Shown in pieces: positions 16,713 through 43,320 of a stretch of 43,830 nt of DNA. Every line of letters starts with the position of its first letter. The stretch's first letter is position 1. The stretch is from contig JAJYYF010000024.1 in the NCBI GenBank assembly GCA_021801225.1, forward strand, positions 1-43,830. The letters are read 5' to 3'. A model generated the notes under the pieces. It was given only the letters and a program-made list of their open reading frames with translations. It was not told the DNA's origin and searched no databases. This DNA comes from Microcaldota archaeon. GTDB taxonomy: Archaea; Micrarchaeota; Micrarchaeia; Micrarchaeales; CABMGC01. Made by a program: the position numbers and the translations under genes.

Positions 16713-18380
16713 TATCTCTTTTTCTATGTTTGTTATAAACTCCTGCAGATCAACATTGAACTTTTGCTTGTTCGTTCTTGTTCTAACAGTTATCTTTGAT
16801 GCATCTTCTTCCTTCTTTCCTAAAACTATTGCATAAGGTACCTTTAGAGTTATTGCTTCTCGTACTTTGTACTCTAATGTTCTGTCAGAAATATCAAGTT
16901 CTACTCTTATTCCATGTTGTTTTATTTGTTCAAAAACTTTCTGTGCATATTCATTAGTTTGTTGAGATATTGACATTACTCTTACTTGCATCGGTGCAAG
17001 CCATGTTGGAAACTTTCCTTGATAGTGCTCCACCATAACAGCGGTGAAACGTTCTAATGAACCAAGAACCGCTCTATGAATTATTATTGGAGTTTTAGCA
17101 AGACCATCTTCAGCAGTATACTCTAATTTAAATCTTAATGGAAGTTGATAATCCAACTGGATTGTTGCGCACTGCCACTTTCTGCCCATAGAATCAATAA
17201 TATCAAAGTCTATCTTTGGACCATAGAATGCACCATCTTTGTCTTTAACTCCATACTCTATGTGATTTGATTCTAAAGCACTCTTAAGCAAAGACTCTGC
17301 GTTTTGCCATAACTTTTCATCACCCATGTGATCATCAGGCATAGTTGAAAGGTTAGCCTTGAACTCCATTCCAAAAATGTCGTATGTTTCTTTTACTAAT
17401 TTTAAATAATTTGATATTTCATCTTGTAATTGATCCTCTCTGATAAAAATATGTCCATCGTCTTGAGTTAATTCTTGAACACGCAAAAGACCGCTCACTA
17501 CTCCAGAAAGTTCTCTTCTATAAAGCTTATCGAAGGTAGCTGTTCTAAATGGAAGTTCTCTGTAACTCCATTTTTTGGATTTATAAATCATAATTGTTGC
17601 TGGACAGTTCATAGGTTTAAGCCCATGCTCTCCAGACTCAGTGTCAAATATAAACATATTATCTTTATAGTGATCTAAATGTCCACTAACTTGCCAAAGA
17701 GCTAGATTAGCTACAGAAGGAGTGCTAGTTTCTAAATAATCATATTTATGCTCTAGCTCGCGCATTAAGCGTATAAGCTCTCTATATATAGTATGACCAT
17801 TAGGATGCCAGTAAACCATAGCTGGAGATATCTCTTGAAAGCTATACAAATCCAAGCGTTCCCCGATTGTCCTGTGGTCTTGCTCTGGAAGTCCTGCCCA
17901 CGAGCTCTTCTTAACTATTGCCGTATTCCTGCTTACAGGCTTCTTTACCTTTGTGTAAACCTTATTACTACCTTCAGGAGTATAACTCCTAGACTGCTCA
18001 GCTAGAGGATGTGCCTTAATATCTAGAATAAGCTTTTTATTCCAACCGAAAGGAGCTTTTGCCACTGTTATCTCCTTAGGAACTTGTTTATACATGTGTT
18101 CTAGTAATTGCATCGCGTCGTTAGGCGCAGCTAAGTTACCGCTAAGATGTGCAAATGGATATATAACGAGTGATGTTCTAGCTAACTTTTTCATGTACTC
18201 AAAGGTATCTTGCATTGCTTTATCTGCCATCTCTACAGTATCTCCTTTTTCTACAGATACCATTATTACTAATGTATTGTCAATGGATGTTCTTTCTTTT
18301 TTGACATCATCATAAAGACTTGCTTCTGGCTTTACTGGCTCATACGTTATGTTGTCTACATCCATTTGTAGTATTTTCAT
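16683..18380 (-). CDS. thrS: Threonyl-tRNA synthetase, archaeal type
   Basis: 565 residues. The N-terminal ~140 residues are the archaea-specific editing domain related to D-aminoacyl-tRNA deacylase (MKILQMDVDNITYEPV, VIYPFAHLSGNLAAPNDA, KAPFGWNKKLILDIKAHPLAE). The class II catalytic core follows: LKPMNCPATIMIYKSK, FRTATFDKLYRRE with VQELTQDDGHIF (motif 2), and IHRAVLGSLERF (motif 3). The C-terminal anticodon-binding domain starts near LAPMQVRVMSISQQ. It charges tRNA-Thr and removes mischarged serine. ATG at 18380 is clear. The last codons and 3' flank recur at the end of the truncated VIT1-like gene. Confidence 0.95.
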   Translation of the reverse strand: MKILQMDVDNITYEPVKPEASLYDDVKKERTSIDNTLVIMVSVEKGDTVEMADKAMQDTFEYMKKLARTSLVIYPFAHLSGNLAAPNDAMQLLEHMYKQVPKEITVAKAPFGWNKKLILDIKAHPLAEQSRSYTPEGSNKVYTKVKKPVSRNTAIVKKSSWAGLPEQDHRTIGERLDLYSFQEISPAMVYWHPNGHTIYRELIRLMRELEHKYDYLETSTPSVANLALWQVSGHLDHYKDNMFIFDTESGEHGLKPMNCPATIMIYKSKKWSYRELPFRTATFDKLYRRELSGVVSGLLRVQELTQDDGHIFIREDQLQDEISNYLKLVKETYDIFGMEFKANLSTMPDDHMGDEKLWQNAESLLKSALESNHIEYGVKDKDGAFYGPKIDFDIIDSMGRKWQCATIQLDYQLPLRFKLEYTAEDGLAKTPIIIHRAVLGSLERFTAVMVEHYQGKFPTWLAPMQVRVMSISQQTNEYAQKVFEQIKQHGIRVELDISDRTLEYKVREAITLKVPYAIVLGKKEEDASKITVRTRTNKQKFNVDLQEFITNIEKEIKERGKELSY

Positions 18381-18457
18381 TAAATAACCACGAGTATTGT
18401 ACTTTAAAAGAATTTAATCTTTTTGTTTTGAATAATAAGTATAAATTTGTAAACAAT

Positions 18458-19171
18458 TTATTTGATATTTGAATTTTTTGCATAAATATAACCAACTCTA
18501 TACCCTTTTTCAAACCAAATTGGTCTTGTATGAGAAACTTCAAAAAAATTTTCTTTAAGTTTAGATTCAATATTGATATATCCTTTATGATATTCGATTT
18601 GTATCTGTGCATAATCTTTTAATTTTTTTGAGTTCAAAATTTGTTCATATTCGCCTCCTTCACAATCTATTTTTAATATGAGTCTTTTTCCTTTATTTCT
18701 AATTGCAAAATCATCTATAGTCTTGCTTGTAGCAGCTTCTTTTATTACTTTTGCTTTGAATCCATTTTTATTAATATTTTCTTGTGCTGTTTTCGCCCAT
18801 TCTGCAGGTTCATATGCTTCTACTTCTTTTGCTCCGTTAATAATAAAATAAATAGCTGTATCACCCATCCCTGCACCTATATCTAAAACCCAACTATTTT
18901 TTACATTTAACCAGTTATAAGGTTCTTCTTCGAATACTTCCCTTGCTGCAGTAAATTTACCTATTGTTTTAAGTTTTAATTTAACTCCTTTGTATTCTAA
19001 TTCAACATAACCTAAAGAATTATCTTTTGTATTACTTTTATATATTGACCTCGTTGCAGGTGAATTAGGAAATAATTTATACTTAATAAACCCAAGAGTA
19101 TCTAACATACGCCTAGAAAATAGTTCATCAATAAATGTAATATTTTTCATGCGATTCAACATTAGGAACAT
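18458..19171 (-). CDS. FkbM-family methyltransferase
   Basis: 237 residues. WVLDIGAGMGDTAIYFI is the SAM-binding motif I, EVEAYEPAEWAKTAQENI motif II, and LILKIDCEGGEYEQIL the characteristic FkbM block. FkbM enzymes O-methylate sugars or small molecules. In-frame ATGs at 19171, 19162 and 19150 are all possible starts; the first lies inside one arm of a 13-bp inverted repeat. It is divergent from the peptide/kinase/ATP-grasp cluster and could contribute to it. No signal peptide. Confidence 0.8.
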   Translation of the reverse strand: MFLMLNRMKNITFIDELFSRRMLDTLGFIKYKLFPNSPATRSIYKSNTKDNSLGYVELEYKGVKLKLKTIGKFTAAREVFEEEPYNWLNVKNSWVLDIGAGMGDTAIYFIINGAKEVEAYEPAEWAKTAQENINKNGFKAKVIKEAATSKTIDDFAIRNKGKRLILKIDCEGGEYEQILNSKKLKDYAQIQIEYHKGYINIESKLKENFFEVSHTRPIWFEKGYRVGYIYAKNSNIK

Positions 19172-19175
19172 GACA
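19163..19175 (+). repeat. Left arm of a 13-bp inverted repeat
   Basis: TAGGAACATGACA, the exact reverse complement of 19359-19371, overlaps the 5' end of the FkbM gene. The arms are 183 bp apart and frame the divergent spacer. Confidence 0.7.
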
Positions 19176-19358
19176 AATTAAATATCTTCTTGTTTTATAA
19201 GATTTGGTAGTTTATAGATATATAGGTAATTAAATCAAATATCCAAAAACTAGAATAAAAAACATTAAAGTAAAAATACATGTTTTTTCTTGTATTCTTG
19301 CATATATACTTTCTTATTCGTAAAAGGCGTTTAGTTTGTCGAGGTAATTGAATGTAAA

Positions 19359-19371
19359 TGTCATGTTCCTA
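19359..19371 (-). repeat. Right arm of a 13-bp inverted repeat
   Basis: TGTCATGTTCCTA lies ~20 bp before the TATA-like box of the 24-aa mini-gene, so both divergent units carry the same site near their start. This suggests a shared operator or recombination remnant. Confidence 0.7.
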
Positions 19372-19390
19372 TATTCAAAATGACTAGTTA

Positions 19391-19400
19391 AGTATTTAAG
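19391..19400 (+). promoter_or_regulatory. TATA-like box of the 24-aa mini-gene
   Basis: agtatttaag lies ~35 bp before the ATG at 19431 and ~26 bp before a plausible start site, with GGTGG at 19422-19426 following. Confidence 0.45.
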
Positions 19401-19430
19401 GTTTATGATTGATAATATATTGGTGGATAT

Positions 19431-19505
19431 ATGAAAAAAACATATATAGAGAAAATTAAGGAGCTAAAAAAGAAAGCAATATATAGTAAGGATGAGAAAA
19501 CTTAA
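19431..19505 (+). CDS. 24-residue peptide mini-gene
   Basis: GGTGG four bases before the ATG is a strong archaeal ribosome binding site. The ORF encodes MKKTYIEKIKELKKKAIYS then KDEKT and TAA. A TATA-like box precedes it and a long T-rich tract (19507-19529) follows, so it has the layout of a complete small gene. The peptide is basic, probably helical in the first 16 residues, with a polar C-terminal YSKDEKT containing Ser, Thr, Tyr and acidic residues. It lies before an HPr-kinase-like gene and an ATP-grasp ligase, which makes it a candidate substrate. No homologue is known to me. Confidence 0.45.
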   Translation: MKKTYIEKIKELKKKAIYSKDEKT

Positions 19506-19506
19506 T

Positions 19507-19531
19507 TTCATTTATTTTTTTTATTTTTTTA
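19507..19531 (+). terminator. T-rich terminator after the mini-gene
   Basis: Two runs of T (tttattttttttattttttt) immediately follow the mini-gene stop. Archaeal RNA polymerase terminates on such tracts. Partial read-through would be needed if the downstream cluster shares this promoter. Confidence 0.5.
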
Positions 19532-19667
19532 ATATCAAAAATTAACTAGTGGTTTTATTAAAATTATTAGAAATATTGATAATACTACTAAAGAAGTTAT
19601 TGTAAACTTTACATATTTTAATACTAGAATTTCAGTTATTCTGCCTAAAAATTCACAAAAAATATTT

Positions 19668-20513
19668 ATGGAAAGATTTAATAATTCATTTTCAATTTAT
19701 TATGATAAACAATTAGAACTTAAAAAATCTGAAGAATTAAAATTAATTTTTAAAAAAGGAGAAAATAAATTAGATATTGGAAAAAATACAGTAAATATAT
19801 CAGAAAATGCTTCATTCGAACAAATTGCATTTGATGCAATAAATATATTATCAAAATTTTTTGAAAAGGATATTAATAAAAAAGGCATTTTCTCGATACA
19901 TGGGGCCAGTATAACAAATAATAATAAGGGGATTTTGTTACTTGGGGATAATGGATCTGGAAAAACTACGAGCGCAATTATGGTTTGTTTAAAGAACCCG
20001 GAAATTAAACTGATCTCTGGAAATAGAATTTTTTTAAATTCAGATAATATAATCGGAGGGGTTAATATTATTAATTTAAGATACGGTTCTATAAAATCTG
20101 AATTTAGTTCTTTCGATCAAGTAACCATCATTAATTCACAAATTAAAAAAGTTTATAATTGGGAAAAACGGTTATTTGTAAATCCAGAAGATTTAAAAAT
20201 AACTGTAAATAAAAAATACCCTGTTAAATTGACAGCAATAATATTTATAAAAAAATTGCCCAAACCTTTAACTATATTAAAAGTTGAGGATAAGTATACA
20301 TATTTACATGAACTTTATGAAAGTATATCACGATGGGGAGATAGAAATCCATATACTTTCGGCTCAATGATACATCTTCCAGAGATTTTTTCATACCGAC
20401 TTAAATCAATTAGATTACATTCTATAAATGATATTTTAAAGTCAACGCCAATTTTATCTTTAGAGGGTAACTTGGAAAACATTTCTGATTATTTAAAAAC
20501 ATTGATAAGGTGA
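19668..20513 (+). CDS. HPr kinase-like P-loop ATPase/kinase
   Basis: 281 residues from ATG 19668. IFSIHGASI followed by GILLLGDNGSGKTTSA (P-loop at ~93-101) and later SGNRIFLNS is the layout of HPr kinase and HprK-related kinases, where a His-containing strand precedes the Walker A loop. True HPr kinase phosphorylates Ser46 of HPr; there is no PTS system here, and relatives phosphorylate peptides or small molecules. The frame stays open upstream to 19533 and encodes plausible protein (TTKEVIVNFTYFNTRISVIL), but contains no ATG, GTG or TTG, so the true start may be a rare codon or the 5' end may be damaged. The stop overlaps the next gene (GTGA). Confidence 0.7.
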   Translation: MERFNNSFSIYYDKQLELKKSEELKLIFKKGENKLDIGKNTVNISENASFEQIAFDAINILSKFFEKDINKKGIFSIHGASITNNNKGILLLGDNGSGKTTSAIMVCLKNPEIKLISGNRIFLNSDNIIGGVNIINLRYGSIKSEFSSFDQVTIINSQIKKVYNWEKRLFVNPEDLKITVNKKYPVKLTAIIFIKKLPKPLTILKVEDKYTYLHELYESISRWGDRNPYTFGSMIHLPEIFSYRLKSIRLHSINDILKSTPILSLEGNLENISDYLKTLIR

Positions 20514-21823
20514 TATTTATTTATAAATATAAATTAAAATTACGTTCGATTTACAATTCAAATATAAACATAAAAAATTTTGATAAATCAAACAACAAAA
20601 TAAATTTTAATTTAGAGTTACCTGAAAATATTAAAAACTGGTGCGTAGTTTATGAAAAGCTTCTTAGAGTTCTTTATTCGGAGTGTAAAATTTGGGATAA
20701 AAATATATATTTAATTAATGGGTATATATATTTAAACGGTATAGATATATACAGTTCTAAATTAATAAAAAACTTTATAAATAATCCTTCAGATATGCGT
20801 CTAAAAAATCTTTATAAAAAAATAAGATTACATAAAGGTTTACCAGAGATTATGACAATTATAGCATGTAGAAATTTAAGTATTGAGTATGAATATATTT
20901 GTTCTGAATATGAAATTGAAAGAGCATATGTTGAAATATTAAATATCAAATTAAATCACACACTTAATATTCAAGAAATTCCAAAATTAGAAATTAATAT
21001 CAATAAACGTATACTTAAATTATTGTTTAAAAAGCCCATTTTTATTAGAGGTCAAGAAAGCCCGTTAGTACCATCATCAGTTATCAATCTTATTAAAAAT
21101 AAAATATATGTTTATAAATTACTTAAATTTTTAAAGCATAACGTACCATATTTTAAAGAAATTAGTTCAAAAAAGCAGTTATTAACATTTGACAAAGGAA
21201 AAAGTTATATTTTAAAACCAATATATGGCTCACATAAAGTGGGAATTATAGGTCCAGTAAAAACCAAATCAAAGTTAATAAATGCTTATTCTAGATGTTT
21301 ACATCAAGGATTTAAAAATCAATCAGCTATAATATGCCAAGAATATAAATTAGGCAAACATATCAGAGTAAATATTAATAATAATAAAATAACTTTTGTA
21401 GCTCAATCTATAAGGAAAAAAATAACTGGCGATGGAAAATCTAAAATAATTGATATGATTAATAAAACTGAAAATTGTTTAGATAAAAAGCGCATAAAAA
21501 ATATTTTAATTGGCGAAGGAATGAATTTTAATACTATTTTGCCCAAAAATAGAAATTTACTACTATCACTTGATGGCAATGGAGGTACTTTTATAGATAT
21601 AACAAAATCTTTAAAAAATATTTACAAAAAAGAAATGCTTAGGATATCAAAGGAATTGGAAATACCTGTTTTAGGAATAGACGCTATAATAGATACAAAT
21701 AATAAATTATGGATAATAGATATAGAATCTAATCCAGATATAGATTATTTCGTTAATACAAATAAAGCTTATGAAACGATGAAACATAGTATAAAAACAT
21801 ATATTAATAATTTTGGAAGATAA
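20510..21823 (+). CDS. ATP-grasp ligase, cyanophycin synthetase/RimK-like
   Basis: 437 residues, GTG start overlapping the previous stop. The N-terminal ~170 residues are unrecognised. The ATP-grasp fold covers ~175-437: VPSSVINLIKNKIYVYKLL (NK entry motif), SYILKPIYGSHKVGIIG (ATP-binding Lys and glycine loop), TGDGKSKIIDMINKTEN (the GDGKxxI...N motif of cyanophycin synthetase-type enzymes) and LWIIDIESNPDIDYF (metal-ligand Glu/Asn). Such enzymes join a carboxylate to an amine through an acylphosphate, commonly forming peptide or isopeptide bonds. It probably acts with the HPr-kinase-like protein on one substrate. Very Lys/Ile/Asn-rich. Confidence 0.75.
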   Translation: MIFIYKYKLKLRSIYNSNINIKNFDKSNNKINFNLELPENIKNWCVVYEKLLRVLYSECKIWDKNIYLINGYIYLNGIDIYSSKLIKNFINNPSDMRLKNLYKKIRLHKGLPEIMTIIACRNLSIEYEYICSEYEIERAYVEILNIKLNHTLNIQEIPKLEININKRILKLLFKKPIFIRGQESPLVPSSVINLIKNKIYVYKLLKFLKHNVPYFKEISSKKQLLTFDKGKSYILKPIYGSHKVGIIGPVKTKSKLINAYSRCLHQGFKNQSAIICQEYKLGKHIRVNINNNKITFVAQSIRKKITGDGKSKIIDMINKTENCLDKKRIKNILIGEGMNFNTILPKNRNLLLSLDGNGGTFIDITKSLKNIYKKEMLRISKELEIPVLGIDAIIDTNNKLWIIDIESNPDIDYFVNTNKAYETMKHSIKTYINNFGR

Positions 21824-21824
21824 T

Positions 21825-22364
21825 ATGGACAAAATAATAGAATCTGATCTTGTTTTTTCGTGTCCAAAATTTAAAGTTTATGAAGAAATTGTTAAGTTAA
21901 ACACACAAAAAATAACAAAACGTTGGCAAATATTTTATAATGACAGTGTAGTAATAATAGGGATAACAAAAGAAAAAGAAATAATCATGATAAACGAATA
22001 CAGAGAAAATATCGGTAAAAAAATATTATTGTTGCCTGGAGGAGGAGTAAAAGAAAATGAAGAAATTGAAACTGCAGCTATGCGTGAATTTGAAGAAGAA
22101 ACGGGATATTATGGGGAAAATATTAAATTACTAACAGTCATGGATCAATCTAACTCAAAAATAAAACATAAAATATATTATTATGTTATAGAAAATGTAT
22201 CCTTTAAAGGACAGAAATTAGAAGAAGATGAAGAAATCTCGGTTAAGTTATTTCCAATGACCGAACTTTTTATTATGGCAAAAGAAAGAAATTTAGAAGA
22301 TGAATTAGATATAAATGCACTATTATTATTTAAAAGTAAATATATTGATTCCCATGATAAATAA
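21825..22364 (+). CDS. Nudix hydrolase (ADP-ribose pyrophosphatase-like)
   Basis: 179 residues from ATG 21825, one base after the ATP-grasp stop. A complete Nudix box is present: GGVKENEEIETAAMREFEEE then TGY, matching Gx5Ex7REUxEExGU. The preceding strands (WQIFYNDSVVIIGITKEKEI, INEYRENIGKKILLLPGG) and the EYRENIG element resemble ADP-sugar pyrophosphatases. It hydrolyses a nucleoside diphosphate linked to another moiety. Placement between ATP-grasp and methyltransferase genes suggests it removes or recycles a nucleotide-linked intermediate. The C-terminus overlaps the next gene by 11 bp. Confidence 0.88.
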   Translation: MDKIIESDLVFSCPKFKVYEEIVKLNTQKITKRWQIFYNDSVVIIGITKEKEIIMINEYRENIGKKILLLPGGGVKENEEIETAAMREFEEETGYYGENIKLLTVMDQSNSKIKHKIYYYVIENVSFKGQKLEEDEEISVKLFPMTELFIMAKERNLEDELDINALLLFKSKYIDSHDK

Positions 22365-23106
22365 TATTAAAAAATACTACGACAGTAAAGCAGAATATTA
22401 CGATATTCTTAATAAAACATCTTTTAGCACAGCGAATCAAGAAGTAAAACTTCTAAGAAAAATTTTTTCAAAATATAAAATTACACCTATTAAAATTTTT
22501 GATATCGGTTGTGGTACTGGGAGATTATCATTACCTTTAAGTAAATTAAACTATAATGTTACAGGAATCGATATATCTAAAAATGAACTAAAAATTGCAA
22601 GAATAAAAGCTAAAATTCTTGGATTAAAAATTAATTTTTATTACTCTGATGTTCGTACATTTAAAAATAAAAACATAGATGTAGTTGTAGCTGGTGACGG
22701 TGTGATTTGCCACATTTATACAAAAATAGGTATTATTAAATGTTTTAAGAACATTTTTAAAAATTTAAATAATAATGGTATTTTTATATTTGACGCATCA
22801 AATTATGATTATAAAAAAATAACCAAAAAAATAAATAGATATCATGTTAAAAAAGATAATAAAGATTTGTTTATGGAACGGAAAAAACATTTTACAAATG
22901 ATGGTTTATTTGAATGGACAGATAGTTTAAAGGTATATGAAAATAAAAAGTGTACTATATTTAAATTCCATAATAAAATAGTTCTGCGTAAAAATTATGA
23001 GTGGATAAAATTATTAAAATTATCAGGGTTTAAAAATATACGTTATTATCCCAGGTTATATAAAAAAGGAATTCCACGTACATTTTATTATGTGGGGCAA
23101 AAATAA
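22354..23106 (+). CDS. Class I SAM-dependent methyltransferase
   Basis: 250 residues from ATG 22354, overlapping the Nudix stop by 11 bp (an upstream in-frame ATG at 22315 is less likely). YYDSKAEYYDIL is the usual N-terminal helix; IKIFDIGCGTGRLSLPL is motif I, VTGIDISKNELKIARIKA motif II, and DVVVAGDGVICHI and GIFIFDASN correspond to later strands. The C-terminal half (RKNYEWIKLLKLSGFKNIRY) matches ubiE/Tam-like methyltransferases. The substrate is unknown. As the last gene of a tightly coupled set it probably methylates the cluster's product. Confidence 0.85.
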   Translation: MINNIKKYYDSKAEYYDILNKTSFSTANQEVKLLRKIFSKYKITPIKIFDIGCGTGRLSLPLSKLNYNVTGIDISKNELKIARIKAKILGLKINFYYSDVRTFKNKNIDVVVAGDGVICHIYTKIGIIKCFKNIFKNLNNNGIFIFDASNYDYKKITKKINRYHVKKDNKDLFMERKKHFTNDGLFEWTDSLKVYENKKCTIFKFHNKIVLRKNYEWIKLLKLSGFKNIRYYPRLYKKGIPRTFYYVGQK

Positions 23107-23236
23107 ATTATATAAATAATTAATGCCATAAAAATTCTGTAGTATATTTTTAAAACTGTGAAAAATAAATTACGTTAATTAGGTTCCGTAGAACTCTTCT
23201 ATTTGTATCTCAATTTTGTTAAAATGATATGGCCAT
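23107..23236. other. AT-rich spacer after the methyltransferase gene
   Basis: 130 bp between the end of the ATP-grasp cluster and the nitroreductase remnant. I see no gene or structured element. Confidence 0.5.
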
Positions 23237-23350
23237 ATGGCACAAAACATTTTACTTTCTTGTACAAAACATAATTTAGGAGCTTGTCCGATAGGGGGAT
23301 TTGTAAATCAAACTATTATGGAATTATTAGATCTTACAAAAGAAAATTAG
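23237..23350 (+). pseudogene. Nitroreductase fragment
   Basis: 37 codons, MAQNILLSCTKHNLGACPIG then GFVNQTIMELLDLTKEN and TAG. This matches the flavin-binding C-terminal segment of nitroreductases (AxNxLLAAxxLGLGACxIGGF...ELLxL). The first ~100 residues are missing and the end shifts frame, so it is a remnant of a lost gene. Confidence 0.7.
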
Positions 23351-23480
23351 ATGAAAAAGTAATTATTTGGACTTTTATTTTTGAACAGTTAGGTGTAGAT
23401 AAATCTTGCTAATAAATTCCTGCTTGTGCTAATTTATTCATTCAAAAACGATAATTATTTAGAAGACCAACTCAAAGATA
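23351..23480. other. Spacer before the ribbon-helix-helix gene
   Basis: 130 bp. A second frame just after the nitroreductase stop (LDEKVIIWTFIFEQLGV) may be the frame-shifted continuation of the pseudogene. Nothing else is evident. Confidence 0.35.
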
Positions 23481-23530
23481 TCTTTATATATCTTAATGTT
23501 ATAACATTATAATACATTAAAATACATTAA
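23481..23530 (+). promoter_or_regulatory. Promoter with 10-bp direct repeats before the ribbon-helix-helix gene
   Basis: A TATA-like tctttatata (23481-23490) is followed by atgttataacattat and two exact tandem copies of aatacattaa (23511-23520, 23521-23530). Repeats at one helical turn are typical ribbon-helix-helix operator arrays, so autoregulation by the next gene is likely. Confidence 0.5.
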
Positions 23531-23546
23531 TATTTGATATGATTTT

Positions 23547-23774
23547 ATGGTGAGTAAAAAAACATCAAAACAAACAAGAAAATACACAACAATAACGATA
23601 CCACAGCCGTTATTCGACAAAATTAAAAAAAGTATTGAAAATACTGGCTTTTCTTCTGTTTCGGATTGGGTCACATTTGTACTTAGAGAAACTATGATTG
23701 ATATGGAGAAGAAAAACTCTAAAACAAAAAGTGCAGTTATGGAAAAACTTGAAGCACTTGGTTATACTGGTTGA
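23547..23774 (+). CDS. Ribbon-helix-helix DNA-binding protein
   Basis: 75 residues. KYTTITIPQPLFDKIKKSIENTG gives the beta-strand (TTITIP) that dimerises into the DNA-reading ribbon, then FSSVSDWVTFVLRETMIDM gives the second helix, as in CopG/Arc/MetJ repressors. The C-terminal tail AVMEKLEALGYTG closely matches the last residues of CysD downstream (YVMEKLRALGYM). It is first in the sulfate-activation unit, directly after a promoter with 10-bp repeats, so I infer that it represses this unit. Confidence 0.85.
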   Translation: MVSKKTSKQTRKYTTITIPQPLFDKIKKSIENTGFSSVSDWVTFVLRETMIDMEKKNSKTKSAVMEKLEALGYTG

Positions 23775-23778
23775 TTTA

Positions 23779-24063
23779 ATGAGTAATTTTGAAGAATTAT
23801 CTGAAAGTTTATGGAAAAAACCCACAAAAGAAAATTGGGAAGTTATGAAAAAATATCTTGTGAAAAGCACTGCTAAGTACTACAAAGTAAAGTTTGAAAA
23901 AGGCAAAATAAACAAAGAACAAGATCTTACAAAATCGTATGCAGAGATTTTTGATTCGAAAGAAAAAATATTGGGAAAAATACCTATTTTTATGAAAGAT
24001 GGAAAAGGTGTTCAAGGAGCTACGATTTATCTCGTCGGATTGCAGATATTAAATAATGATTGA
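23779..24063 (+). CDS. Unknown 94-aa protein in the cysD unit
   Basis: 94 residues from the ATG at 23779, 4 bp after the ribbon-helix-helix gene. An earlier in-frame ATG inside that gene is less likely. The sequence (NFEELSESLWKKPTKENWEV, KYYKVKFEKGKINKEQDL, KIPIFMKDGKGVQGATIYLV) looks like a small mixed alpha/beta cytoplasmic protein with no signal peptide. No family is recognised. Its stop is 10 bp before the preferred cysD start. Conserved linkage with cysD elsewhere would support a role in sulfate activation. Confidence 0.65.
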   Translation: MSNFEELSESLWKKPTKENWEVMKKYLVKSTAKYYKVKFEKGKINKEQDLTKSYAEIFDSKEKILGKIPIFMKDGKGVQGATIYLVGLQILNND

Positions 24064-36013: not shown

Positions 36014-38176
36014 TTAGGTGTTAGACATACCGTTAACATAAAAATTACTAGACGGTAATGTAGTTATACTGTTCACTATAGTATTTTGAGAGGGATTAAA
36101 AACTAAAATATTTCCAGAGTTATAAATATAAATATCACTTCCTGACTTTGTCATGTATGTGGGATAATCGAAATCAGGCGAGTCGAAAGATGAAAATTGA
36201 TTGGTTTGAGTATTGTAGATTATTAAATTACCTGTCCCAAATTCACCTCCATATTTGTTTAGCATATATGCATTTGGACCTGAAAAGGTTATTTGTAAAG
36301 GAGAATCAAAAAGGGGGGAGTCAATTGATGAGAATTGATTGTTTTGAGTATTGTAAAGTATTAAATTACCCGTACCATATTGACCACCTTCAGTATTTGT
36401 TATATATGCAGTTGAACCAGAAAAAGAGATTCCAGAAGGAAAATAAAAGAGGTTGGAATTGATTGATGAGAATTGATTGTTTTGGGTGTTGTAGATTAGT
36501 ACATTACCATAATAAAATTCTCCGCCTTCTTGGTTTATTATGTATAAATTATTATTGTATATAGCTAAATTTCCAGGAGAATCAAAATCAGATATAAAAG
36601 AGGCAGTCCTATTTACTGCATTATTAAAAGGATTAAATGTAAACAAGGAATATTGGCCATATTGTTTACCTATAAAATATCCTAAACCACCACTTAAAAC
36701 TATTGGATATGGTTCATATAGCATATTATTATTTGTAAAATGTTGAGGGTCAGTTATTGCGTTGTTAAGAGTATTTAAAAGTAGTAAATTTCCATCTTCA
36801 AATAATCCACCATATTCATTCGTTATATAAGCATTTGAACCTGAGAAGTCTATTCCATAAGGATAATCAAAAAGTTGAGAATCGATTGATGAGAATTGGT
36901 TTGTTTGAGTGTTGTAGATTATTAAATTACCGCTTCCTGATTCACCACCTTCTTGGTTTGTTATATAAGCATTCGCACCTAAAAATGATATTCCTAAAGG
37001 AGACTCAAAAAGTGGGGAGTCGATTGATGAAAATTGATTGGTTTGGGTATTGTAAATAATTATATTTCCTGCGCCGTATTGACCACCTAAATCATTTATT
37101 ATGTAAGCATTTGAACCATAGAAAGTTATTCCCCTGGGAGAATCAAAAAGTGGGGAGTCGATCGATGAAAATTGATTTGTTTGAGTGTTGTAAATTAATA
37201 CATTACCCGCCCCTGATTCGCCGCCTCCTTGGTTTGTTATGTAAGCATTTGAGCCATAGAAGGTTATTCCAGAAGGATATTTAAAAAGGGGGGAGTCGAT
37301 CGATGAAAATTGATTTGTTTGAGTGTTGTAAATTGGTACATTACCATAATAAAATTCGCCGCCTCCTTGGTTTGTTATGTAAGCATTTGAGCCGGAAAAA
37401 GCGATTCCTGAAGGATAATTAAACATTTGAGAGTTGATTGAGGAAAGTTGATTGGTTTGGGTGTCGTATATGGTTATGTTGCCTACTGTGAGTTGACCAC
37501 CCCTTTGATTTACAATATAAATGTCTTGACCTTCTAATGAAATAGATGTAGAACTACTAAGAGGTGTTTGACCTAAACTTATCGAGTTTATTATATTCCC
37601 ATTTACTAAATTTAATTGTATTAAATTTGAAGGATAATTTAGATTTGAAATGTAGATTATACCCTGACCGTTGCTTCCTGGAACTCCGGTTGGGCTTCCT
37701 GTTGAAACTGTTGCAGAGGTACTACCCAACTCTTCTTCTTGACCGTTATTAAGCTGCACCCATAATGAACCCTTAAATGAAGAGCCTATGTTTTGTGAGT
37801 TTAACTGACATTCAAAGGTAACTTGTTTTGATTGATCTTGTCCTAATGTAAGTAAAACAGGGGAAAATGTCGTTGGTGTTGATGAGGAGTTTGAGCAGCC
37901 TAACCCAGTTATAACAAGATTTTGGCCGCCATTGTTTCCAACAGTAAGTGTCAAGTTTCCTGTTGAGTTAAGTTGTAGATTATTACATAGAAAACCAATC
38001 TGTGGAATACATTCAGAAGGTAATGTGGAGTTTGTTCCGTTAAAGTATCCTAACTCAAAAAGTGTTACAAGAGCTATTGCAATAATTAGAATCGACCAAC
38101 CGTAAGTTAAGAGATACTCCATAGCCGATTGTGCATGCACTTCTTTTTTAGATCTTTTAATTAATTTTTTTGACAT
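36014..38176 (-). CDS. Secreted protein: class III signal peptide plus ~12 propeller-type repeats
   Basis: 720 residues. N-terminus MSKKLIKRSKKEVHA then QSAMEYLLTYGWSILIIAIA, a class III signal peptide. Residues ~45-165 form a Cys-containing Asn/Ser-rich domain. Then about twelve ~46-residue units follow (pattern NLIIYNTQTNQFSSIDSPLF with GSNAYITNQ and a GGxxGxG turn). The middle pair is divergent (NLLLLNTLNNAIT...GYFIGKQYGQYSLFTF), as if two six-unit propellers were joined there. The length difference from the 443-residue paralogue (277) equals six units. N-terminal ~180 residues are nearly identical to the gene at 41077-43239. Likely exported and surface exposed. Confidence 0.85.
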   Translation of the reverse strand: MSKKLIKRSKKEVHAQSAMEYLLTYGWSILIIAIALVTLFELGYFNGTNSTLPSECIPQIGFLCNNLQLNSTGNLTLTVGNNGGQNLVITGLGCSNSSSTPTTFSPVLLTLGQDQSKQVTFECQLNSQNIGSSFKGSLWVQLNNGQEEELGSTSATVSTGSPTGVPGSNGQGIIYISNLNYPSNLIQLNLVNGNIINSISLGQTPLSSSTSISLEGQDIYIVNQRGGQLTVGNITIYDTQTNQLSSINSQMFNYPSGIAFSGSNAYITNQGGGEFYYGNVPIYNTQTNQFSSIDSPLFKYPSGITFYGSNAYITNQGGGESGAGNVLIYNTQTNQFSSIDSPLFDSPRGITFYGSNAYIINDLGGQYGAGNIIIYNTQTNQFSSIDSPLFESPLGISFLGANAYITNQEGGESGSGNLIIYNTQTNQFSSIDSQLFDYPYGIDFSGSNAYITNEYGGLFEDGNLLLLNTLNNAITDPQHFTNNNMLYEPYPIVLSGGLGYFIGKQYGQYSLFTFNPFNNAVNRTASFISDFDSPGNLAIYNNNLYIINQEGGEFYYGNVLIYNTQNNQFSSINSNLFYFPSGISFSGSTAYITNTEGGQYGTGNLILYNTQNNQFSSIDSPLFDSPLQITFSGPNAYMLNKYGGEFGTGNLIIYNTQTNQFSSFDSPDFDYPTYMTKSGSDIYIYNSGNILVFNPSQNTIVNSITTLPSSNFYVNGMSNT

Positions 38177-41009: not shown

Positions 41010-43320
41010 ATTGCAACATATGTTGTCTTAATTTTAGTTTAGTTATTTTATTTATATATTTATAGTAATGTAATGATTAGGTGTTAGACATACCCTCTAT
41101 TAAATAATTACTAGGGGATAAGGTAGATATACTATTTACTATAGATTCTTGTGATGGATTGAAAACTAAAATATTTCCAGAGTTATAAATATAGATATCA
41201 CTTCCTGATTTAGTTATGTATGTTGGATTTTTAAAGTCTGTAGAGTCAAAAGATGAAAATTGATTGTTTTGATTATTGTATATAATTATATTTCCTGCAC
41301 CGTATTGACCACCATATTGATTTGTTATATATGCATTCGAACCAGAGAAGGTGATTCCTGATGGAAAAAAGAAAAGTGGGGAGTCGATTGATGATAATTG
41401 ATTGTTTTGAGTATTGTATAGTATTAAATTTCCAGAACCATATTTGCTCCCATATTCATTTATTATATAAATATTATAGCCATAGATTGCCATTCCAGAA
41501 GGAGAATCGAAAAGTTGGGAGTCGATTGATGAAAATTGGTTTGTTTGGGTGTTGTAGAGGATTAAGTTGCCCGTCCCGTATTGACCGCCATCATAATTTG
41601 TTATGTATAAATTATTGTTATAGAAAACTAAACTTTGAGGAAAATCAAAAAGGGAATTAGGAGGGGTAATGTTATTTACTGCATTATTAAAAGGATTAAA
41701 TGTAAACAATGAATATTGACTGTATTGTTTACCTATAAAATACCCTAAACCATTGCTTAAAAATATTGAAGATATAGTAAATGTCATATTGTTATTTGTA
41801 AAACGTTTGAAATTAGTTACTGCATTGTTAAGCGTATTTAGGAGTAGTATATTCCCAGTACCAAATAAACCACCATATGTATTTAGTATATAAGCGTTTG
41901 AGCTAGAGAAAGTTAGTCCTGAAGGATATTTAAAAATAGGGGAGTCGATTGATGAGAATTGGTTTGTTTGGGTGTTGTAAATTATTAAATTACCCCCACT
42001 ATATTGACCACCTTGACTATTTATTATATATGCATTTGAGCCGGAAAAAGCGATTCCTGAAGGATAAAAGAAAAGTGGGGAGTCGATTGATGATAATTGG
42101 TTTGTTTGAGTATTGTATACTATAATGTTTCCCTCATTTGAAGTGCCGCCATATTTATTTGCCATATATGCGTTTGAGCCGTAGAAGGTTATCCCCTGGG
42201 GAATATAGAAAAGTGGGGAGTCAATTGATGAGAATTGATTTGTTTGAGTGTTGTAAATGATTAAGTTGCCCACACCATATTGGCCACCACCATTTGTTAT
42301 ATATGAATTTGATCCATAAAAAGAAATTCCAGTTGGATTATGAAAAATTGGAGAGTCTATTGAGGATAATTGATTTGTTTGGATGTTGTAAATGATTATA
42401 TTGCCTTTGTAAAATTGACCACCATATTGATTTACTATATAAGCATTTGAGCCATAAAAGGCTATTCCTTCTGGAGAATCAAAAAGCGGGGAGTCGATTG
42501 ATGATAATTGGTTTGTTTGGATGTTGTAGAGTATTATATTACCGTTATGTGATTGACCCCCAAAACTATTCACAATATAAAGTTCTTGACCATCTAATGC
42601 AATAAAATATGGAAAATCAATAGGCGTTCCGCCTAGACTTACAGAATTTATTATATTGCCATTTACTAAATTTAATTTTAATATATTATTTGGTATATAC
42701 TTATTATTTGATAAATATATTATACCCTGACCGTTGCTTCCTGGAACTCCGGTTGGGCTTCCTGTTGAAACTGTTGCAGAGGTACTACCTAACTCTTCTT
42801 CTTGACCGTTATTAAGCTGCATCCATAAGGAACCTTTAAATGAAGAACCTATGTTTTGTGAGTTTAACTGACATTCAAAGGTAACTTGTTTTGATTGACC
42901 TTGTCCCAGTGTAAGTAAAACAGGGGAAAATGTCGTGGGTGTTGATGAGGAGTTTGAGCAGCCTAACCCAATTATAACAAGATTTTGGCCGCCATTGTTT
43001 CCAACAGTAAGTGTCAAGTTTCCTGTTGAGTTAAGTTGTAGATTATTACATAGAAAACCAATCTGTGGAATACATTCCGAAGGTAATGTGGAGTTTATTC
43101 CGTTAAAGTATCCTAACTCGAAAAGTGTTACAAGAGCTATTGCAATAATTAGAATCGACCAACCGTAAGTTAAGAGATACTCCATAGCAGATTGTGCATG
43201 GACTTCTTTTTTAGATCTTTTAATTAATTTTTTTGACATATATACTTTATTATAATGAATCGTAAAGTTTATATTATTATTTTATTGACAAATAAAGCTT
43301 TATTTTTAAGAAAGAGATAA
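41010..43320. repeat. First copy of a 2311-bp tandem duplication
   Basis: The sequence starting attgcaacatatgttgtctt at 41010 recurs at 43321 and continues nearly identical to the end of the window. The unit contains one whole 720-residue propeller gene plus a copied piece of the priS 3' flank at its right end. Confidence 0.85.
41077..43239 (-). CDS. Secreted protein: class III signal peptide plus ~12 propeller-type repeats (paralogue)
   Basis: 720 residues, same length and architecture as the gene at 36014-38176. The signal peptide and the first ~170 residues differ at only a few positions; the repeats are more diverged in their variable loops (NIILYNIQTNQLSSIDSPLF, GSNAYIVNQYGG and others), and the divergent middle pair (NILLLNTLNNAVT ... 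SLFTFNPFNNAVN) is kept. Exported through the pilin-like route by inference. Conserved N-terminus with variable repeats is the pattern expected of a diversifying surface family. Confidence 0.85.
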   Translation of the reverse strand: MSKKLIKRSKKEVHAQSAMEYLLTYGWSILIIAIALVTLFELGYFNGINSTLPSECIPQIGFLCNNLQLNSTGNLTLTVGNNGGQNLVIIGLGCSNSSSTPTTFSPVLLTLGQGQSKQVTFECQLNSQNIGSSFKGSLWMQLNNGQEEELGSTSATVSTGSPTGVPGSNGQGIIYLSNNKYIPNNILKLNLVNGNIINSVSLGGTPIDFPYFIALDGQELYIVNSFGGQSHNGNIILYNIQTNQLSSIDSPLFDSPEGIAFYGSNAYIVNQYGGQFYKGNIIIYNIQTNQLSSIDSPIFHNPTGISFYGSNSYITNGGGQYGVGNLIIYNTQTNQFSSIDSPLFYIPQGITFYGSNAYMANKYGGTSNEGNIIVYNTQTNQLSSIDSPLFFYPSGIAFSGSNAYIINSQGGQYSGGNLIIYNTQTNQFSSIDSPIFKYPSGLTFSSSNAYILNTYGGLFGTGNILLLNTLNNAVTNFKRFTNNNMTFTISSIFLSNGLGYFIGKQYSQYSLFTFNPFNNAVNNITPPNSLFDFPQSLVFYNNNLYITNYDGGQYGTGNLILYNTQTNQFSSIDSQLFDSPSGMAIYGYNIYIINEYGSKYGSGNLILYNTQNNQLSSIDSPLFFFPSGITFSGSNAYITNQYGGQYGAGNIIIYNNQNNQFSSFDSTDFKNPTYITKSGSDIYIYNSGNILVFNPSQESIVNSISTLSPSNYLIEGMSNT

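Follow-up and report, generated by a model that had tools for sequence, protein, structure and literature searches.

A strain-variable gene set at a micrarchaeal gene-exchange hotspot, encoding an HprK-like protein, an ATP-grasp ligase, a Nudix hydrolase and a methyltransferase: a candidate small-molecule modification cassette

The DNA analysed here (the window) comprises 43,830 nucleotides of a contig from a Microcaldota archaeon, whose genome assembly amounts to 965 kb in 31 contigs and is about 91% complete. Four genes follow each other closely on its forward strand: a homologue of HprK-like P-loop kinases (19557..20513, with an uncertain start at either ATT 19557 or a late ATG at 19668), an ATP-grasp ligase (20510..21823; PF14398, E = 3.4e-8) with a distinctive N-terminal region of about 180 residues, a Nudix hydrolase of the NudE/ADP-ribose pyrophosphatase type (21825..22364; PF00293, 1.9e-16) and a class-I SAM methyltransferase (22354..23106; PF13847, 2.9e-16). 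The TGA stop of the kinase gene (20511–20513) overlaps the GTG of the ATP-grasp gene at 20510, a single base pair separates the end of the latter (21823) from the Nudix ATG (21825), and the methyltransferase ATG (22354) precedes the end of the Nudix gene (22364), which results in an 11-bp overlap. Ahead of the kinase gene, a 24-codon open reading frame (MKKTYIEKIKELKKKAIYSKDEKT; 19431..19505, forward strand), a possible leader for which a role as substrate is unsupported, is preceded by a GGTGG ribosome-binding-like site (19422..19426, forward strand) and followed by a T-rich tract resembling an archaeal terminator (about 19507..19529, forward strand). All of these elements had been listed in an original prediction made by reading the sequence; each of them is found there, and the domain assignments for the ATP-grasp, Nudix and methyltransferase proteins are upheld by family scans.

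The four genes are part of a strain-variable insert of about 5.0 kb (about 18437..23471), i.e. a replacement allele flanked by thrS on one side and the copG/cysDN operon on the other, which also includes a divergently oriented gene for an FkbM-family methyltransferase (18458..19171, reverse strand; TIGR01444, E = 2.2e-12, above the cut-off; PF05050, 4e-6). The near-identical genome G050, whose flanking DNA is 99.5% and 98.9% identical to the window on the two sides, lacks positions 18437–23471 and has there instead a different 1.8-kb segment bearing a 526-residue surface-like open reading frame. The distance between thrS and cysD differs among relatives, and the cargo between thrS and copG/cysDN (with labels taken from translations) consists of an acetyltransferase-like, transposase-like or DNA-methylase-like gene or of little besides the copG operon. 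With an unrelated gene at the same site in so close a genome, the interval between the ThrRS gene and copG/cysDN is a hotspot of gene exchange. The low GC content of the insert (23.9% versus 31.0% for the remaining window) bears out the AT-richness from which horizontal acquisition had originally been proposed, and together with the empty site in G050 and a relic in the sister species G051 it supports this proposal. This relic of 0.65 kb, which is located on a contig other than that of the hotspot (contig C13, L052:1760–2403) and is 86% identical in DNA to window positions 21722–22369, consists of the tail of the ATP-grasp gene and a Nudix gene frameshifted by a one-base deletion. Since DNA identity between the two species is only 75–78% in the flanking genes, the transfer of this piece probably postdates the species split and was followed by decay. 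By the same comparisons, the acquired unit takes in the divergent FkbM gene. Across the genus and family, the cargo of the interval corresponding to window positions 18380–24056 differs in nearly every genome read.

Kinase relationships are distant throughout. HprK_rel_B is matched by all seven micrarchaeal family members (best E = 3.6e-8), with matches far below the 200-bit cut-off wherever scores are given; the window kinase alone reaches E = 8.7e-5 and 21.8 bits. A profile of ten members, i.e. the seven micrarchaeal proteins and three more distant ones, matches solved HprK at 1.1e-6 over a region spanning the P-loop and the acidic motif. By these profile matches, which are weak but consistent, the window protein is a remote relative of HprK-related kinase B; its structure as predicted from the single sequence (mean pLDDT 33.3) is too poor for comparison. 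No ATG, GTG or TTG takes in the conserved N-terminus and the first ATG (19668) comes about 25 conserved residues late. Homology thus starts upstream of this ATG, and the kinase start is either non-standard or has been lost, which could mean that the operon is starting to decay. A candidate is ATT 19557, with GTGG 4 nt upstream. ATT 20519 is likewise a possible start of the ATP-grasp gene, ribosome-site-like 4-mers (GTGG or GGTG) being found 4–8 nt before both ATT codons. As 6% of interior ATT codons are also preceded by such a 4-mer, ATT starts for the two genes are only suggestive. The same genome (G000) encodes a second HprK-like protein (contig C11, L024:9264–10217), which is surrounded, judging from translations, by CYTH-like, sugar-epimerase-like and radical-SAM-like genes.

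Features of the HPr kinase/phosphorylase fold are present in the window kinase, i.e. the P-loop and an upstream histidine, with H117, G132, G137 and K138 invariant in all ten aligned sequences. Where HprK has its acidic pair (ADD, downstream of the P-loop), however, seven of seven micrarchaeal kinases have SGN, TGN or AGN followed by Arg, whereas the motif reads SGDR in Halorussus, SNDR in the paralogue from the same genome and AEDQ in Azospirillum. The position of the second Asp is thus occupied by Asn throughout the micrarchaeal clade and by Asp in these three others. In HprK, the Asp pair is required for phosphotransfer to serine. Because the conserved Asp is Asn in the entire clade, phosphorylation by the window kinase, one element of the original prediction, seems doubtful, and the exchange may either abolish catalysis or redirect it. 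As a speculative and improbable extension, the Asn-fixed clade might represent a new kind of P-loop phosphotransferase, which would use an acceptor that is already anionic (phosphate or carboxylate), hence need no general base and make an anhydride. Its partners, differing from operon to operon, would be pyrophosphate-bond hydrolases (Nudix or PPase-like) together with a changing complement of ligases, methyltransferases or radical SAM enzymes, and the window locus would be its ligase-bearing version. An Asp-to-Asn exchange across a whole HprK-like clade, with Nudix or pyrophosphatase-like genes nearby in five of seven loci, in any case poses a specific and testable biochemical question.

The ATP-grasp protein matches the cyanophycin synthetase type in NCBIfam (1.3e-15), and its core can be aligned to peptide or amino-acid ligases of known structure (E = 3.7e-20). 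This core (window residues about 190–410) is shared with cyanophycin synthetase, GshAB and N-acetylglutaminylglutamine synthetase, whereas the N-terminal region is unmatched by the models of these enzymes and the protein is too short for their second catalytic domain. Two full-length homologues with 31–33% identity are both encoded in G117, a 62% complete Candidatus Micrarchaeota assembly from the same order as the window genome, in two paralogous loci that each adjoin an ABC-2 exporter and lack a kinase, with one contig stopping 163 nt upstream of the ATP-grasp gene. The presumed ATP-binding Lys (K236) and acidic metal ligands (D391 and D404), core residues whose roles are assigned by alignment, are invariant in the three sequences, and the third acidic position is E406 in the window protein and Asn in both homologues; a structure predicted from these three sequences (mean pLDDT 42.1) is too poor for comparison. 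A scan of GTDB yielded nothing beyond the two G117 loci, viral contigs contained no match to the kinase or the ATP-grasp protein, and phage and plasmid collections gave only partial, generic matches to the latter (in plasmids of GshAB/cyanophycin type). At each of the two G117 loci, the ATP-grasp gene is separated from the exporter genes by a small basic open reading frame (L005:7413–7577 and L004:6503–6670, both on the forward strand), a possible partner or substrate of the adjoining ATP-grasp enzyme. Its product reads MGKSxxHTRxSxEGM, continues Gly- and Lys/Ala-rich and, among 60 genomes searched, is found in G117 only.

The Nudix protein matches the NudE model (1.6e-18), its closest solved structures are ADP-ribose pyrophosphatases (4e-16) and the Nudix box GX5EX7REUXEEXGU is intact in the translation (GGGVKENEEIETAAMREFEEETGY). 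For the methyltransferase, G143, which belongs to another micrarchaeal family, is the only genome besides that of the window to contain an orthologue at E ≤ 1e-20 among 301 genomes of the phylum, and this orthologue is found solely beside a kinase and a Nudix gene. The three genes are adjacent in G143, with 34% (kinase), 39% (Nudix) and 37% (methyltransferase) identity to the window proteins and no ATP-grasp gene in between (the contig begins 324 nt upstream of the kinase). Counting the window genome itself, the kinase or a relative occurs in eight and the window-type ATP-grasp in two of the 301 genomes. The original prediction had staked itself on relatives keeping kinase and ATP-grasp genes adjacent, yet the two occur together in the window genome and in no relative among these 301, and the full set of four genes is found once. 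A conserved neighbourhood thus holds for kinase, Nudix and methyltransferase and fails for the pairing with ATP-grasp.

Other kinase loci vary in composition. At L020 the order is kinase–Nudix–nucleotidyltransferase, and the kinases of L019 and L023 are near glycosyltransferase-like genes. In five of the seven micrarchaeal loci (window, L018, L020, L021 and L022), the kinase gene has a Nudix or pyrophosphatase-like gene nearby, so that a pyrophosphate-bond hydrolase near the kinase is a recurring pattern, though the enzymes are of different families and a pattern is not a proof. A full-length kinase relative from Halorussus, matched by tblastn at 2e-8 in the plasmid collection and by the family profile at 1.7e-38 in a three-sequence test, is found near adenylate-kinase-like, NMNAT-like and DHH-DHHA2 phosphoesterase proteins. 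In two micrarchaeal families (L021:5581–10312 and L022:413–2999), a radical SAM/SPASM enzyme is accompanied by an HprK-like kinase as well as by a short pyrophosphatase-like protein, and L021 in addition has a B12-type radical SAM enzyme.

How does this gene set relate to known systems? The resemblance to the GAK system (HprK-related kinase B, GAK ATP-grasp, a CofD-like and an XXXCH protein), to which the original prediction had pointed, consists in an HprK_rel_B-like kinase beside an ATP-grasp gene, with Nudix and methyltransferase as extras in the window. This likeness breaks down on all three features tested: the kinase scores 21.8 rather than 200 bits with TIGR04355, and nothing in the genome exceeds the cut-off; the GAK-type ATP-grasp model, which we take to be TIGR04356, is absent from the NCBIfam matches at E ≤ 1; and no CofD-like protein (TIGR04357) is matched in the window's own genome, about 91% complete. 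The SynChlorMet cassette combines the HprK-like ScmC with the radical SAM enzymes ScmE and ScmF, and the kinase relatives at L021 and L022 likewise adjoin SPASM radical SAM enzymes, whereas the window cassette has no such enzyme. With the HPr-kinase homologues of lasso-peptide clusters of the paeninodin type, the window shares an HprK-like tailoring kinase within a modification cluster, but it lacks a lasso peptidase or cyclase and a recognizable precursor, and its kinase has Asn in place of Asp. A literature search found no paper in which HprK, ATP-grasp and Nudix are combined.

Overall, the reading to which we tentatively give most weight, at somewhat less than even chances, is that of a horizontally exchanged small-molecule modification cassette that has been swapped into the thrS–copG/cysDN hotspot. 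In such a cassette, the four enzymes would probably assemble a small molecule and modify it, and ligation, phosphorylation and methylation may fall on one substrate. The ATP-grasp enzyme would join an amino group to a carboxylate activated as acyl phosphate, resulting in an amide bond, the methyltransferase would cap or methylate the product, the HprK-like protein could either use ATP on the same compound or act as a nucleotide-bound switch, and the Nudix enzyme would cleave a nucleoside-diphosphate-linked intermediate or by-product. Kinase, Nudix and methyltransferase would then be the core, with ATP-grasp as an optional extension added in the window genome. The adjacency of this core trio in G143 at similar divergence, the exclusive association of the methyltransferase orthologue with kinase and Nudix genes, the hydrolases near five of seven micrarchaeal kinases along with the NMNAT-like and DHH-DHHA2 neighbours in Halorussus, the alignment of the ATP-grasp core with peptide or amino-acid ligases and the exporter beside its G117 homologues, as well as the empty site and the GC contrast, all argue for a cassette. 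What argues against it is the single occurrence of the four-gene set, the generic nature of Nudix and methyltransferase proteins, a kinase clade devoid of the conserved Asp and the possible onset of decay signalled by the missing or odd kinase start. To our knowledge, few biosynthetic clusters have been described in DPANN archaea, and a compact, strain-variable cassette with a conserved core could provide a small testable system for these organisms.

Alternatively, the insert might be a cell-surface variation island, exchanged between strains as other surface loci are, with a surface glycan or lipid-linked sugar as the target of modification and FkbM acting in the same pathway. FkbM and the adjoining sulfate-activation, glycosyltransferase and phosphodiesterase genes would fit such a role, as would the surface-like protein at the same site in G050, the glycosyltransferase-like genes near the L019 and L023 kinases and the exporter next to the G117 ATP-grasp genes; the insert itself, however, is devoid of any glycosyltransferase or nucleotide-sugar enzyme and some alleles of the hotspot are not surface genes, so that we consider this island rather unlikely.

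The short open reading frame had originally been put forward as a possible substrate of the enzymes, a role that loses its footing because none of the other related kinases is preceded by a counterpart and nothing links the frame to the enzymes. Its length is at chance level, since an ATG frame of at least 24 codons arises in 30% of dinucleotide shuffles of the intergenic stretch. With a correctly placed GGTGG or GGAGG this falls to 0.12% of shuffles, a figure that is optimistic because the site was spotted after the fact. The frame is shared with the kinase gene, two TAA codons lying in between. We prefer to see in it a translated leader or a product of chance, a leader being as likely as anything else. 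Combined with the T-tract, it might control read-through into an operon that acts on some other substrate, which is compatible with the cassette reading. A strong-looking ribosome site directly before the T-tract, followed by genes with weak or odd starts, would suit this control, but the lack of conservation and a similar T-tract in 14% of shuffles leave it rather unlikely.

That unrelated genes without a common substrate have gathered in the hotspot, or form a defence-type cassette, appears less likely still: transposon and DNA-modification-like genes among other alleles and the restriction of the ATP-grasp–kinase combination to the window genome fit such an assembly, whereas reading frames overlap, three of the four genes recur together in G143 and a defence system is not supported, as PADLOC matches only generic Nudix and methyltransferase types. 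A ribosomal-peptide pathway, finally, in which ATP-grasp would ligate the 24-residue peptide as a precursor for modification by kinase and methyltransferase, is very improbable. In its favour, the ribosome site of the short frame is good, two kinase relatives adjoin radical SAM/SPASM enzymes, precursors of lasso peptides undergo phosphorylation by HprK homologues (PMC8498205), and graspetides are produced by ATP-grasp ligases, in clusters often containing methyltransferases and SPASM enzymes (PMC8939145). Against it, there is no conserved precursor gene by the ligase as in graspetide and other RiPP clusters, the insert has neither a peptidase nor a PqqD-like or transporter gene, no matching peptide accompanies the G143 trio, and the ATP-grasp enzyme is of the cyanophycin/GshAB type.

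Elsewhere in the window, two reverse-strand open reading frames of 720 residues each (36014–38176 and 41077–43239) are preceded by nearly identical 20-mers, and this pairing suggests a gene duplication.
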